Below are positions 46,890 through 54,598 of a stretch of 64,000 nt of DNA, piece by piece. The stretch is taken from positions 180,851 through 244,850 of the IMG/VR virus record IMGVR_UViG_3300032331_003609, one strand, 5' to 3'. The notes under the pieces were generated by a model. It had not been told where the DNA came from. It did no database searches and saw nothing but the letters and a program-made list of their open reading frames with translations. The position numbers and the translations under genes were made by a program. Positions within the stretch are counted from its first letter, which is position 1, and each line of letters begins with the position of its first letter. Source of the DNA: a virus.

Positions 46890-49088
46890 ATGCCGAAAAT
46901 AAACATATTAAATATTCTTGCTGGGGATCAACAAGCAATACTTGTAGACAAAGTAAACTACAATTTTGACCAGATTTTAACAGCGGGCGGCGGACCACAG
47001 GGACCTCAGGGCATTAGAGGTGCTACCGGACCTATAGGGCCGCAAGGAATACAGGGTCCAACCGGACCACAGGGATTAAAAGGATCAAGATGGTATGTTC
47101 AGGTAACCGCTCCAACATCTGAAAATATTTTTCATACACCCTGGGGAGAGCCTGAACTTGGAGATTATTGGTTAGCAGGAGCAGATGATGCTAATCCATA
47201 TGGAATTTATGTTTATAATGAAACTGTACCAGGAGCTTTAAATTGGGAGTACTCTGGAGTTTTCTTTGCTAATACATCAGCATTTACCCCGGTAGATGAC
47301 ATAAATCAGACGGATGAAAGAGCTTTAATACACGATACATTATTCAGTAATAGGTATTCTTTAGTCCTAAGTGATTACGGAGTTACCGGGTCAGAAACAG
47401 GATTTAAATATAGGGATTTTAATAAATTTGGAATTAATGGGGAAAGATCTAAGCTTAAAATAGCTACTGATTTTAATTCACCATTTTTATCCCTTTTATC
47501 TTTTGGTAGAGCAAACTTAGATGACGGAAATAGAGCAAACACAGCATATAGTTTAAATAGAAATCCTAGATTTAGATGGAAGAATTTAACAGGCAGTGAT
47601 TATCATATAGAATTCTTTTCTCCAACGGGTGATTATTATGTAAGCACTCCTAAATTTGTTATAGGGGGAACTTCTTCTAATTTTTCAGTAACAGGTTATA
47701 ATGCTACCGGCGACATGTTCCGCCTTACAACAAGTTCAACAGCTGCTGTAAATCCTAGCAAATATTTTTTTGGGTTTGACTCCGCTGGATATGTAACAAA
47801 AGGATTACCGTACAATCCAACAATAAGTGCAGGTATTCTTTCCTCTGATGCAAATAATTTAGATTATTACGAAGAGGGGGATTTAAAAGGAATACTTCAA
47901 TTAAAAACCTATTGCAATACTACAGAATGGAACGGAACGCCTGATTCTACATATAATAATGTAAAGGCAAGATATACGAGAATTGGTAATTTGGTTCATG
48001 TTGATTTTACAATTAAAATAGCAGGACTAGGAGCTACAGTTCCTCAGTATTTAGACAATGGTGGTACCTTATTTATTAAAGGATTTCCCTACGACCCTGA
48101 TTTCTCTGCCATTAAAGCAGGAGAAGACACTACAAGTATCACAAGACCAGCAATGCCTGTGATACCTATTAAGGCATCCATAGGAAATTCAACATTGAGG
48201 GATTATTCTGGTGCATTTGTTTATTACACAAATACAGGGGAATCAAGATTTATTCTTTATAATAATTCGGGGGGTTTATTTGATGTTAGTAGTTTACCTA
48301 CAGCAGCATCTTATTTATATGGAAGTTTCAGCTACACAACACAAAGTGCTACTAGAATTAGCACTATAGTTACACCTGCTGGATATTGTACAGGAACTTT
48401 ACCTGCACCAACACCAGCACCAACGCCAGCACCAACGCCAGCACCGACCCCAGCTCCTGATTACGATTTTGCTTGGGATTATGCTAATTATGTTGCAGGA
48501 CCAACACCAGCTCCAACACCTGCGCCTACGCCAGCTCCGACGCCAGCACCAACGCCAGCACCAACACCTGCGCCTACGCCAGCACCAACACCTGCGCCTA
48601 CGCCAGCACCAACACCTGCGCCTACGCCAGCACCAACACCTGCGCCTACGCCAGCACCAACGCCAGCACCAGCAAGCTGTAACATAAGTAATCCTAGCTA
48701 TGTGACAGTTAATACACCTACTGCTTATGGAACGATTTACATCTCAACGGATAGAAATATTACTTTATCAGCATTTGGGGGAGCAGCATTTGGAAGCCAT
48801 ACTAGCGCTAATATTAGCGTAACTGGATATAATGGAACAGCTACACCGTATCCAAGTTCTGCATATGTTTATGCAGGAAGTTATATTACTGCGGCTAACG
48901 ATCTTGCATTACCTGCTGGTTACTACAATTTCTACCTAACAAGTAGCTACCAAGGAAGTAATGGAAATAACGCTGGAATATCTTGTGGTACTGTCATAAC
49001 ATATACGCCAACACCTAGTCCAACTCCTAGCCCAGGAACTAGCGGAGGCGGCGGTGGAGGTGGAGGCGGAATGTCAGGAATAGGATAG
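46890..49088 (+). CDS. Tail fibre/adhesin with collagen-like and PTPA repeats
   Basis: A 732-aa protein. The N-terminus has a [10 protein letters not shown] attachment-like motif. It is followed by ten Gly-x-y triplets (residues 35-64, e.g. [16 protein letters not shown]), a collagen-like trimer stalk. A beta-rich body follows, then Pro-Thr-Pro-Ala repeats (about 505-523 and 538-595) flanking a short [11 protein letters not shown] insert. A C-terminal beta domain with two Cys (CNIS, SCGT) and a poly-Gly tail (GGGGGGGGG) closes the protein. This is typical of a phage adhesin: collagen stalk, flexible Pro-rich linker, and distal receptor-binding domain. It heads its own putative transcription unit. 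Confidence 0.8.
48402..48674 (+). repeat. PTPA-coding tandem repeat (12- and 24-base units), two blocks
   Basis: Blocks at 48402-48458 and 48501-48674 consist of CCAACACCTGCG-type 12-base units; in the second block a 24-base unit (CCAGCACCAACACCTGCG plus CCTACG) recurs several times with no change. It codes for a Pro-Thr-Pro-Ala linker. Nearly identical DNA is found in the fibre-like gene at 49753. Confidence 0.9.
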
Positions 49089-49111: not shown

Positions 49112-49744
49112 ATGGATAGAGAGATAATATCGGGTGAAGATTTTTTATATCAAAGAGGGACAATTTCAACAGTCTACTCTTGGTATAGACCATCTTATGA
49201 CTATGTTAAAGATTATTTACAATACCTGAAAGACGAGACAACTGTTTTTGATGAATTTGAAATTTATTTAGCAGGAGGTATACTATACGATTTTGATAGC
49301 ACATGGGACGTTGATATATTTCTAGTAGGTGGTTTGGAAAGCGATGCAAAGATAGAAGAGCAATTAAATCTTATGACAGACATTGCATTGAATAAATTTT
49401 TCATGCTAGTAGATATAGCATGGATGGAAAGAAGACCTTCGAATATTACTTATTCGCAAATGGAAGAAAATAATTTTCTTCAAGAGGATATAGCATATAA
49501 AAAGATAGGGCATTTTAAAAAGAAAATGGGGACAGAATCCTGGGAATACAATATGAAAGATAATCCTGGTGTTGAACCTTTGAGCGAATACTTAATTAAA
49601 AGCAGTTTTGGTGGATTCAAACACACTGACAAAATGATAGACAAGGTTAGGAATCATCCTAAGCAAAATGTGATAACCACATTTAGTGCGGAAGAATTTC
49701 TATTGAATGATAGAAATTATTTTTTAAGTAATACTAATAGATAA
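49112..49744 (+). CDS. Minimal nucleotidyltransferase-like protein
   Basis: The 210-aa protein has the DNA-polymerase-beta-type nucleotidyltransferase signature: [11 protein letters not shown] (GG at 55-56, Ser63) followed by [10 protein letters not shown], giving the metal-binding Asp66 and Asp68. A third acidic position is expected in the following MLVDIAW strand. Such proteins transfer a nucleotide or act as minimal toxins/antitoxins; some modify tRNA, protein or antibiotics. It lies between two PTPA-repeat fibre genes, which is an odd context. It has an A-rich leader (AAATTAAAAAC) 1 base before the ATG. Confidence 0.5.
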
Positions 49745-49752
49745 GATATAAA

Positions 49753-51093
49753 ATGGCAAGTGTAAATATAAAATTCTCATCAGCAGGAAACGTTACGAGT
49801 CAATCGTATGAGATATCTGCAAGCGCAACAGAAAATGGGAGTTATAGTGTAATTAGTACTATATCAAGAGCAACACTTCTTGCCGGAACTTATATTACTG
49901 TTCCAGATGATTCTACGTGGATTAAAGGCGATAATGTTACAGTGGGAGCACCAGCTGGTATATCCCACAAAATACAAATATCGGGTCTTCCAGCACCAAC
50001 GCCAGCACCAACACCAGCACCAACACCTGCGCCTACGCCAGCTCCAACACCTGCGCCTACACCAGCACCAACACCAGCACCAACACCTGCTCCAACACCT
50101 GAGCCTACGCCAGCACCAACACCTGCTCCAACACCTGAGCCTACGCCAGCACCAACGCCAGCACCAACACCAGCACCAACACCAGCACCAACGCCAGCAC
50201 CAAATTACGGAGGAACAGTTTATGTAGTTAACACCAATTCGGGAACTGCAGCTGATGCTTGTAACGTATCTGGATTATACATTAGTTTAGGAGTTACTGG
50301 TAATGCAACAACGTTCTGTGCATCTACAATTTTCACGTCAACCACATGGCTATCACAGTTTACGAGCGAAAATTATTATATTTCTGATGCTACAGGGGGT
50401 TCAGGTTATATGACGGTTTATCATGCATCTGGTGATAATTTTGCAACAGTAACCAGCGGAGGTTGTACAGCATGCCCAGGAGCACCAACACCTGCACCAA
50501 CGCCAGCACCAACACCTGCACCAACGCCAGCACCAACACCAACACCAGGTCCTAGTGGCGGAGGCGGAGGAGGCGGATGTCTAGTCTATGGAACACTGAT
50601 TAGTATGGCAGACGGATCATACAAACCTGTTGAAGAAATAGTAATAGGCGATCTTATTAAAACTGTATCAATAGACGGATTGGATAGCAGCGACGAAGAT
50701 GCATGGAAGGTATACACATCTACATCATTCTCTTCAACCCCTATGATATCTACAGTAATGGCTATAATGGATGATAATTGGATCGAATACTATACGATTA
50801 ATGAATCTTTAAATATCACATTTGAACACCCTGTATTTGTTAAGAGAGACATTGATTATCTATTTACTAGAGTAGTTGATCTAATGCTAGGAGACTTTAT
50901 CCTAGATGAGACCGGAAATTGGGTAGAAGTAACCACGATAGATAAAATAGAATTAAACGTTCAAACCATTAATATAAACGTTGAAGATAGCGATCTTTAT
51001 TTCGCTAATGGATTACTAGTTCACAATCTAAATAACGTAGATAAATCTCCTTCAGGGGGAGCGGGAGGAGGACAACCCCCATTTAATCTATAA
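49753..51093 (+). CDS. Fibre-like protein with PTPA repeats and a C-terminal Hint (intein-like) domain
   Basis: A 446-aa protein. An N-terminal beta domain (1-78) is followed by PTPA repeats (80-150), a Cys-containing beta domain (about 152-243), a second PTPA block and a Gly run. Residues 276-425 are a Hint domain. It begins at Cys276 ([21 protein letters not shown], block A), contains TFEHPVF (block B, Thr/His), and ends in ANGLLVHN (block F/G with His424-Asn425). The residue after Asn is Leu, not Cys/Ser/Thr, and no homing endonuclease is present. It should undergo N-terminal thioester formation and cleavage rather than standard splicing. The short 21-aa tail is Gly/Pro-rich. Confidence 0.85.
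49990..50202 (+). repeat. PTPA-coding tandem repeat in the Hint fibre gene, block 1
   Basis: CCAGCACCAACA-type 12-base units encode repeated Pro-Thr-Pro-Ala with two Pro-Thr-Pro-Glu variants. Stretches are identical to those at 48501-48674 in the neighbouring fibre gene, 1.4 kb upstream. Confidence 0.9.
50482..50551 (+). repeat. PTPA-coding tandem repeat in the Hint fibre gene, block 2
   Basis: About five PTPA units immediately precede the Gly-rich stretch and the Hint domain. The DNA matches block 1. Confidence 0.85.
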
Positions 51094-52174: not shown

Positions 52175-54598
52175 ATGTCAAGCTTCACCTATACCAGTAA
52201 ATTTTTCAGTCTTGCTCCATATTTACTTATGGAGTACAGATATGGTACACAGCCTAATCCTGAGAATCATTCAGTGTTATATGGCCTTAATGCCATCGGT
52301 TTTGAAAAGATGTCCAATGGATATTTCAATGGGACAGTGCAAATTACCAATAGAAATCAAGACACTGAAGCAACTGGTAATGTAAGAGATAGAAGTTCTG
52401 TACAAACATCACAAAACACGTTTGTTAGATTAGATATTGATCGTTTAGAACAATATCTGGATTATGACGACAAGCTAACAGATATTAGCAATCTTCCTAT
52501 TGTATTTGAAAACAATATTAATGTCTATTATGACACCGTAAGATACCACTTTTTAAGTGGATATAATTTCGGAACAAAGGATGGCGCTATCATGCAAATC
52601 CAATTTCAGGAAAGAAACGGTAAGAAAGCTACTATTTCTCAAATAACATATGAGAAGGGGGATATAAATATTACAACACCTAACCCTAGTCCAATTTATT
52701 TTAATGCTGGAATATATGATCATTTTATAGAAGTTAAGATTCCTTCTTATGCTTCTATTACATATGACTATGACACCCAAGCAGTAAATGGATTAGCTGA
52801 TCAAACTATTGCATCTAAGATTAGTTCCGATGGACAAGGATTTATAAGAAATCAACCATTTAATATTTCTCTTTATGAGATAGAATCCACACAAAGTATT
52901 AATGGGTTTTACTATTATCAAACTGCTTTAAATACGATAGCAACAATTACTCCTTCCGATGAGTATGCAGATCTTGCAGGTGTTATAACTGAAAATACAG
53001 ATTTTGATTATTTTGAATATTATCCTTCTTGGCAAGGAAATTTTATAGAGGATTTCATTTATGCTGAAAGCTCTTTAGGAAACATCTATTATATTATTCA
53101 TGACATTGAACTAATGGAACAAATAGGTCTAAGAAGAGTTTCCACCCAAAAGATTCAATTGCTTCAAGATAAAGATTTTAATGGTCCTTATCTTTACAGA
53201 CCTGTTGTTATGAATCCTAAGGCAACTAGCTTCTCAATTAATTATTCAATGAGACTAGTTAATAAGAATAGTAACGTTTCTATACTAAGAGTATCAACAG
53301 TAACAAGTACTGAGGTTGACAAATACGGACCAGGCGTTAAAAGAATAAATTTATTACATCAGCCATATCCACAAAAGGTTTACAATAAGGTAGTTGAGCC
53401 GGTTGTTTCTAAGGCATACACATTGAATGTAAATCCAATAGAAAGAGTTATTACTAAATATGTTCCAGCTTTCTTTGAGAGAGAAAATGTAAATATATCA
53501 GAAGAAGATTTAACCATAGACAATCTTGGGGGTTTAACACAATCAGCAACTGTTGATGCTTCAATAGCATTTGGACAAGGAAAATCTAAGATTGTAATTA
53601 ATCCTTATGATAACTATTATAAGTTTAGGGTTTTTGTAAAAAATGACGGGAAAGAAAATACCTTATTAGATCTTGGATCTAATTCAGATTTTTATTTAGT
53701 ATTTGAAGGTGGAGATAACAAAACAGTAAAAATATCTAGTTTAATAAATAGCACATTCCAGAATCCTAGTAAAGGAGAATTGGTATTTAGAGTTGTTGAA
53801 TCAGATTCTAAAAAAGTAACAGCATTTATGGAAAGAGATTTTCATATAGTTGCAAGAACTAATAATGGAATAGAAACATCGATCTATCATGGATATTGGA
53901 TTTTACCTAGTGAAAGAGATCAGAAGCCTGTTGCGGTAACCCCGGCAACACCAGCTCCTATGCCTGCACCTGTAGTGATTTCACCAGTTCAAGCAACAGC
54001 AGCACCTGCGCCAATGCAAGTTGCAACCCCAACAGCAACGCCTGTTCCTGCTGCTATAGAAACACCTGCACCAACACCTTCTACACCAACGGTTGATATA
54101 ATACCGCAACAGCCTAAAGAATACTTTGACATTAAAACTGATCCTGTGATACTAAATGTTGAACCGGCAGTTATGACAAAAGTAGTTGTTGAAGAACCAG
54201 TTATTGTTAAGAAGATACCTATTAAGGCAGACATTGACACGCTAGCAAACCTAATCAAGATGGATGAAAATGCGGGTAAATCGGTTCCTGAAGTTTGTGA
54301 TTACTATACGGTTCCTGGAAATCCTGGAAATCTTCTTTATGAAGGTATCACAGTCAGATTCTTTTTAAATGCTGTTAGATTAGTCCATCCAGATACATTC
54401 GGTAGAAGAAGCGATGAATTTGCAATGTATGCAAATTACCTAGGTGAAATTTACAATCCATATGAGAATCAGAAATATCCATCAGGTGGTGGAGGTGGAG
54501 CTGGTGGTGGGTATATTGGAGGCGGGGGAGTAGGGTACAACATCTACGACAAGATACAAGACAAAAGTGAAACGATGGGTCAAACCTTCTTTCTATAA
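52175..54598 (+). CDS. Virion structural protein with Pro/Ala linker and Gly-rich C-terminus
   Basis: An 807-aa protein. The first 580 residues are beta-rich with many aromatic residues. Residues about 590-640 form a Pro/Ala/Thr-rich linker (PAPMPAPVV, AAPAPMQVATPTA). A compact domain follows (about 680-775, with ITVRFFLNAVRLVHPDTFG), then a Gly-rich end (GGGGGAGGG, GGGGVG). The linker and Gly run resemble those in the fibre genes at 46890 and 49753. It starts close to a putative late promoter and precedes the tail-tube-like gene. Likely a tail or fibre component. Confidence 0.5.
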   Translation: MSSFTYTSKFFSLAPYLLMEYRYGTQPNPENHSVLYGLNAIGFEKMSNGYFNGTVQITNRNQDTEATGNVRDRSSVQTSQNTFVRLDIDRLEQYLDYDDKLTDISNLPIVFENNINVYYDTVRYHFLSGYNFGTKDGAIMQIQFQERNGKKATISQITYEKGDINITTPNPSPIYFNAGIYDHFIEVKIPSYASITYDYDTQAVNGLADQTIASKISSDGQGFIRNQPFNISLYEIESTQSINGFYYYQTALNTIATITPSDEYADLAGVITENTDFDYFEYYPSWQGNFIEDFIYAESSLGNIYYIIHDIELMEQIGLRRVSTQKIQLLQDKDFNGPYLYRPVVMNPKATSFSINYSMRLVNKNSNVSILRVSTVTSTEVDKYGPGVKRINLLHQPYPQKVYNKVVEPVVSKAYTLNVNPIERVITKYVPAFFERENVNISEEDLTIDNLGGLTQSATVDASIAFGQGKSKIVINPYDNYYKFRVFVKNDGKENTLLDLGSNSDFYLVFEGGDNKTVKISSLINSTFQNPSKGELVFRVVESDSKKVTAFMERDFHIVARTNNGIETSIYHGYWILPSERDQKPVAVTPATPAPMPAPVVISPVQATAAPAPMQVATPTATPVPAAIETPAPTPSTPTVDIIPQQPKEYFDIKTDPVILNVEPAVMTKVVVEEPVIVKKIPIKADIDTLANLIKMDENAGKSVPEVCDYYTVPGNPGNLLYEGITVRFFLNAVRLVHPDTFGRRSDEFAMYANYLGEIYNPYENQKYPSGGGGGAGGGYIGGGGVGYNIYDKIQDKSETMGQTFFL

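Follow-up and report, generated by a model that had tools for sequence, protein, structure and literature searches.

The window, as the whole 64,000-nucleotide stretch analysed here is called, forms the final 64 kb of a 244,850-bp virus record. On its plus strand an open reading frame with an ATG start (49753-51093) encodes a fibre-like protein of 446 residues with PTPA repeats and a Hint domain at the C-terminus, and no second copy of this Hint was found when the whole virus record was searched with it. The gene, its parts and the two genes before it are listed below, where L001 and L316 are two orthologous loci described further on.

46890..49088, + strand: neighbouring collagen-like/PTPA fibre gene with a natural poly-Gly tail and without a Hint (open reading frame, profile searches)
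49112..49744, + strand: gene separating the two fibre genes, with counterparts next to the fibre gene in L001 and L316 (open reading frame)
49753..51093, + strand: Hint-terminated PTPA fibre-like gene (open reading frame, translation)
49753..49989, + strand: conserved N-terminal part, residues 1-79, common to L001 and L316 (alignment)
49990..50202, + strand: PTPA repeat rod, residues 80-150 (sequence)
50203..50481, + strand: variable domain with Cys, residues 151-243, differing largely in L001 (alignment)
50482..50556, + strand: second PTPA linker, residues 244-268 (sequence)
50557..50577, + strand: run of 7 Gly, residues 269-275, abutting the predicted scissile bond (sequence)
50578..51027, + strand: Hint (A-type BIL-like) domain, residues 276-425 (motifs, alignment, AF2 model, structure match)
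50578-50580, 50818-50820, 50827-50829 and 51022-51027, + strand: Hint active-site codons for Cys276, T356, H359 and the terminal His-Asn (motifs)
51028..51090, + strand: C-terminal tail of 21 residues, starting with Leu (translation)

The fibre gene at 46890-49088 gave tail-fibre-type profile matches, and its natural poly-Gly end agrees with what an earlier sequence-only reading of this DNA had described. The 210-residue protein encoded between the two fibre genes had no family match in the profile searches and an AF2 model of too low confidence to be informative (pLDDT 35.7); we take its GG...D.D pattern to resemble Pol-beta-type nucleotidyltransferases. Genes farther down in the window matched single-strand DNA-binding protein, primase and RuvC-like resolvase, and one gene there matched tail tube proteins weakly. 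An 807-residue protein without a convincing family match (52175-54598) carries a Gly-rich stretch near its C-terminus.

The HMM searches proposed in the sequence-only reading gave a score above the cut-off for NCBIfam intein_Cterm (16.3 bits, cut-off 15.6) and one under the cut-off for intein_Nterm (13.7 bits, cut-off 24.5), and the Pfam families PT-HINT (3.3e-4) and Intein_splicing (3.9e-4) matched under Pfam's own cut-offs. A profile built from 10 phage Hints matched PDB 2lwy, a Clostridium bacterial intein-like (BIL) domain, at 2.7e-14. The AF2 model of the Hint, made with a 27-row alignment, had a confident Hint fold (pLDDT 88.3, pTM 0.83) with the tail disordered. When the model was realigned with VIA against 999 PDB chains the top matches were both Tetrahymena BIL2 (Z 20.9 and 20.6; for 6y75 Z 20.9 and rmsd 1.4 over 137 residues), CthBIL4 (2lwy) followed at Z 18.8, level with the SspDnaB intein, and rows 1-5 of the Foldseek search held two BILs only, Tetrahymena BIL2 and Clostridium CthBIL4. 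The claim that the fibre-like protein ends in a complete Hint with Cys276 and Asn425 was thus borne out by motifs, profiles and the predicted fold.

The domain starts with Cys276, has a block B of the TxxH form (T356-F-E-H359-P), ends in H424-N425 and is followed by Leu at position +1, and no homing endonuclease was found in its 150 residues (Pfam matches to E 1, in which the weak Hom_end_hint match is a Hint model). Among 27 aligned Hints the T, H, H and N were invariant and the Cys was present in at least 90%, in an alignment that was hand-picked with degenerate Hints omitted and in which the L028 row begins one residue after its Cys. The Gly run noted earlier before the Hint corresponds to residues 269-275; of the description "Leu and a 21-residue tail" the Leu stands, and the tail is 21 residues with this Leu included. 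Judged by its motifs and predicted fold, the C-terminal domain is a real Hint and, by every feature tested, an A-type BIL, in line with the earlier assignment to the Hints without Cys, Ser or Thr at +1.

Other members of the Hint superfamily were compared with the domain. The Hedgehog Hog domain (1at0; VIA Z 17.5) is likewise a C-terminal Hint that hands its upstream part to a nucleophile. Hog domains are not known to have the terminal His-Asn of the window Hint, and the 21 residues behind the window Hint are too few for a sterol-recognition region. In several jumbo phages (Phage NCTB, with a "large intein domain protein", and the Erwinia phages Alexandra and Y3; PHROG 38766) the module and its position are alike; these proteins are annotated as intein domain, tail protein or virion structural protein, and no processing role or lysine rule is mentioned in those annotation records. 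A class 1 intein has Cys, Ser or Thr at +1 and a C-extein that completes the host protein, whereas the window Hint has Leu and a tail of just 21 residues. In the 56 short-tail clusters of relatives described below, position +1 was never Cys, twice Ser and eight times Thr. B-type BILs are described as being without the C-terminal (block G) intein motif (PMC4031507, in the text available), and in the window Hint the His-Asn is present. A-type BILs, according to the available portions of three papers (PMC4031507, PMC7664689, PMC7765530), are defined by a terminal His-Asn and the lack of a +1 nucleophile and mainly cleave. The window Hint shares with A-type BILs such as CthBIL4 (2lwy) the fold, Cys1, TxxH, the terminal His-Asn and the absence of Cys, Ser or Thr at +1, and differs in its place at the end of a phage fibre-like protein, after a Gly run, and in the very short tail with Lys that follows it; A-type BILs are said in the accessible text of PMC7765530 to sit in variable, non-conserved proteins. 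The closest solved fold, BIL2 of the Tetrahymena BUBL1 polyubiquitin-like locus (6y75, 6tmm), was reported by those who provided its structure to splice with formation of a Lys isopeptide bond and without ATP (PMC8616854, available part). BIL2 is flanked on both sides by ubiquitin-like domains, the downstream one of which supplies the Lys, whereas the window Hint has a fibre-like protein upstream and 21 residues downstream. A Lys as in BUBL-type BILs is present and conserved in the window tail, and its attack on a thioester is putative.

The L001 locus encodes a Hint 91% identical to that of the window, and the Hint and the VDK of the tail are kept with a different variable domain. The single Lys of the window tail, Lys431 (51043-51045), is retained there (LAGVDKS). 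The two Hints differ by 9 non-synonymous and 18 synonymous changes, giving a dN/dS of 0.12 from this one pair, and dN/dS for the single-strand DNA-binding protein of the same two loci was 0.04. The domain between the PTPA rods (50203-50481) differs largely in L001 despite near-identity of the N-terminal part and of the Hint, as though the PTPA repeats permitted domains to be swapped. The second locus, L316, was found via the gene at 49112-49744; its gene order is the same, and its fibre shares the N-terminal part but has no Hint, another domain following and the end reading TSCGGGGGAIN, so the Hint is optional. A Hint was not found elsewhere in the 74-kb contig of L316 either, in a profile search run without a positive control on a contig that may be a fragment. 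The Gly end that removal of the Hint would leave resembles what L316 encodes directly; the Gly runs could also be merely linkers. The earlier suggestion of a Gly-ended product is plausible given that both the Hint-less L316 fibre and the neighbouring fibre end near a Gly run.

These comparisons also bear on the idea that the domain is a decayed, functionless mobile intein. Its fold is identical in kind to that of inteins, and ordinary inteins surfaced in the same searches, but its C-terminal place, the lack of an endonuclease, the Leu at +1 and the low dN/dS make such an origin hardly credible. The same is indicated by a sister class of relatives with about 100 residues or more behind the Hint: no Hint-less form of this long-tail class was found, and 203/203 open reading frames with its N-terminal part carry the Hint, a count that includes duplicates and in which most were retrieved through the Hint and 80 by the upstream part alone (best 80 of 184). 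Searched against the phage collection at E 1e-3, this upstream part gave no match.

The module was then found on many proteins. A tblastn search with the window Hint matched 55 of 50,697 phage records, 46 of which are Erwinia phages; in two of the records the match is a ribonucleotide reductase intein and in one it lies in an ATPase-like gene. Four of the Erwinia records were examined, and in these as in Yersinia phage fHe-Yen9-02 a virion or tail protein carries the Hint at its end, with two "tail fiber" genes coming next. Among viral contigs 54 of 211, 61 of 141 and 10 of 116 pattern matches encoded relatives in three scans, and two further scans gave 345 of 522 (best 80 of 345 kept) and 83 of 114 (best 80 of 83 kept), the scan sets overlapping and some of the 345 being other kinds of Hint. 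With a relative encoded in 345 viral-contig stretches, subject to the same limits, the counts do not bear out the expectation that such a putatively self-processing fibre would be unusual in a phage. Scans of genome contigs yielded 0/145 stretches at first and 8/85 in a second round, the plasmid search gave two weak matches in 72,556 records, and the domain occurred in 4/152 genomes of one bacterial family (tails SDTAKP and SNKD, both part of the first set of the lysine counts below, and KDIP). A wide range of phage fibre-like proteins thus share this C-terminal module, which frequently sits behind a Gly run, and the upstream parts vary (collagen-like, LCCL, weak fn3 and Calx-beta matches, and repeat rods such as PVGVS). 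At least 4 Gly in the 6 residues before the Cys were present in 21/42 short-tail clusters (60% identity), compared with a control mean of 0.35 and maximum of 3.

Of 12 loci matched by the single Hint, L001 was a true relative; in the other 11 the match falls within larger proteins, by eye terminase- or recombinase-like, which were taken to hold ordinary inteins and set aside. Alcaligenes phage Afa-NA1 and Salmonella phage Sen-NF (L016 and L022) encode an identical 476-residue Hint-ended tail protein and have different stated hosts; a mix-up of records is possible. Searches of the open PMC literature, where most subscription journals are absent, turned up nothing about phage fibres with C-terminal Hints. 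In the parts of the papers available, phage inteins are described in enzymes and terminases (PMC3556154, PMC5259590, PMC5526547, PMC7468147, PMC7412058, PMC13282480, PMC8616854, PMC7664689, PMC4031507, PMC7824862, PMC6293099, PMC7765530). One of them reports, in the text at hand, no intein matches in 36 variable tail-gene regions (PMC7468147), a result that gives no backing, for those data, to Hints being frequent on tail genes.

More than 100 related proteins keep a Lys just behind the Hint. In 62/89 intact clusters no more than 30 residues follow the His-Asn, and tail length in these short-tail relatives is 1-22 residues. In the first set, where the rule was noticed post hoc, a tail Lys was present in 56/56 intact clusters (80% identity), exactly one in 48 of them, as compared with 29.3 (sd 3.1, maximum 39 in 5000 draws) for length-matched neighbouring C-termini, and Arg was found in 10/56 clusters, below the expected 18.7. 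The position of the first Lys ranged from +1 to +11. Later scans added six short-tail clusters, five with Lys and one exception (L205, intact, QLHQHDYN), and Arg was not scarce in these (3/6). The pooled counts of short tails with Lys were 61/62 at 80% clustering (control 32.1, maximum 44), 41/42 at 60% (21.6, maximum 31), 36/37 at 50% (19.5, maximum 28) and 24/25 at 40% (11.8, maximum 19). The next commonest tail residue was Asp (20/42 clusters) and none but Lys was near-universal; a control drawn from the proteins' own upstream segments gave Lys in 7.9/42 (maximum 17).

In the long-tail class (99-256 residues behind the Hint) position +1 was Lys in 23/23 clusters of the later scans and in 16/16 intact clusters of a scan with the upstream part of this class only, in which 9/17 clusters were less than 80% identical to earlier Hints. 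At 80% clustering 24/27 long-tail clusters had Lys at +1; of the other three, L156 and L143 both have Asp there, and L085 has Pro followed by Lys at +2. Counted as distinct sequences, 90/91 short tails had Lys (71 exactly one) and 56/59 long ones had it at +1; in 87/89 clusters all members had a Lys within 30 residues.

The pooled counts omit inteins and other Hints (L002-L012, L017, L159, L162, L163), domains non-intact at C, TxxH or HN and open reading frames open at the 3' end. The control C-termini come from plus-strand stop-to-stop frames (150 residues or more) at the same loci, and some of these frames may not be genes. The conservation of C, TxxH and HN among the counted Hints is uninformative because "intact" was defined by those residues. 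The clusters share ancestry, the later sets belong to the same superfamily as the first and the long-tail class is nearly one lineage. Within these bounds the lysine rule, as read from the sequences, is a new observation.

Non-intact Hints made up 22 clusters at 60% clustering, some merely cut by contig ends (L054, L150, L314). A tail Lys was kept in L116, L119, L155, L014, L146, L087 and L293 (at +1) and was missing in L031 ("RV") and L037 ("ET"). Hints that have neither Cys nor TxxH and retain HN and a tail Lys were found in L116/L118, L119, L155 and a stand-alone Phage NCTB protein in L014, and the Lys was also kept by variants with TxxQ (L087, L091), NxxH (L293/L294) and KN (L146). Since Cys-less Hints keep HN and the tail Lys, the Lys may serve something besides the Cys1 thioester, and its presence in some Cys-less relatives counts against a purely catalytic reading. 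The persistence of degenerate and variant Hints indicates that the fold can last for other reasons and that the Lys is not strictly tied to Cys1.

Several arrangements were seen among these relatives. The Hints of L073-L076, L069 and L072 are degenerate, lacking Cys and having FD or HD for HN, and come after PPGFFA- or FGFTP-type repeats; L073-L076 lay outside the scripted count (the HN column being missing) and their tails were without Lys by eye. Stand-alone Cys-less Hint proteins of about 150 residues occur in Phage NCTB (L014, 9744-10205), where the gene comes immediately after one for a Hint-ended fibre, and in L031. Tandem Hints with spacers of 2-12 residues, some degenerate, were present in L058, L067 and L153. 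A mainly structural domain, a cap for folding or assembly in which catalysis is minor or lost, would agree with the degenerate Hints without Cys and HN that persist behind repeat rods (L073-L076) and with the stand-alone Cys-less Hints (L014 9744-10205, L031). For the window this seems very improbable, as all known active-site residues are present and the Hint has changed slowly relative to L001.

In the mechanism that we propose, Cys276 would attack the carbonyl of Gly275 to give a thioester, with T356 and H359 assisting, cyclisation of Asn425 would release the short tail from the Hint, and a tail amine, most likely the side chain of Lys431, would receive the poly-Gly end of the fibre. The product would be a fibre whose Gly-run end is isopeptide-bonded to the tail peptide, the Hint being discarded. 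From the gene, the predicted fold, the intact motifs, the low dN/dS (one relative), the recurrence and the lysine rule we infer the chemistry, the order of steps, a role at the fibre tip, the cleavage, the isopeptide bond and the function. Self-excision of the Hint is likely. The fuller proposal, in which an A-type BIL-like Hint excises itself from a phage fibre and the poly-Gly end is passed to a tail amine, most likely Lys431, has in our estimate a little less than an even chance. The sequence-only reading had considered linkage to another virion protein or a host molecule; linkage to a nucleophile is retained, and the partner shifts to the protein's own short tail because Lys is kept there in 61/62 clusters. 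By analogy, the conserved Lys would fit chemistry of the BIL2 type, with Lys431 resolving the Gly275 thioester, and a Lys behind the Hint in more than 100 relatives hints that the fibre end is joined to it, beyond cutting.

The published behaviour of A-type BILs counts partly against ligation, as they are described in the available text of PMC7765530 as unable to ligate their flanks. In plain self-cleavage the Hint would be a removable cap: water or a cell thiol would resolve the Cys276 thioester and Asn425 would cyclise to leave a free Gly end, with the Lys otherwise used. This agrees with the mainly cleaved products reported for BILs (PMC7664689, PMC4031507, PMC7765530, in the portions available), with the Gly runs plus few residues that end the Hint-less L316 fibre and the neighbouring fibre, and with the Lys kept by Cys-less Hints, but it leaves the Lys in 61/62 tail clusters and the scarcity of Arg in the first set unexplained, and we consider it rather unlikely. 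A-type BILs can also splice via the freed alpha-amine but mostly cleave, as stated in the available part of PMC4031507, where this route is proposed. If the +1 alpha-amine acted in this manner after Asn cyclisation, the tail Lys would be incidental or an indirect helper; the wide variation at +1 in short tails is what an alpha-amine would allow, but the conserved feature of these tails is a Lys somewhere and not the identity of +1, which makes this route improbable. Transfer of the thioester in trans to an amine of another virion protein, fibre chain or host surface has a precedent in BIL2, reported to join its upstream ubiquitin-like domain to different substrates (PMC8616854, available text). 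Given that no partner was found among the neighbouring genes and that an amine is already available in cis on the tail Lys, we regard it as quite improbable.

Self-excision with transfer of the Gly end to the tail Lys may extend to the relatives. A widespread, ATP-independent lysine splicing in phages, in which the A-type BIL exits and a Gly-rich fibre end is joined to the tail Lys, giving an isopeptide-capped fibre or, in the long-tail class, a branched one, is put forward tentatively, with the balance leaning against it.

If the proposal is true, a large group of fibre-like proteins in environmental phages would undergo maturation through self-excision and, possibly, isopeptide ligation, the latter a Lys chemistry otherwise met, in the portions of the papers covered, only for one ciliate BIL. 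The "intein domain" labels on phage tail genes would gain meaning, for these phages the fibre ends predicted from the genomes would be wrong, and natural single-chain ligases would become available as a family.
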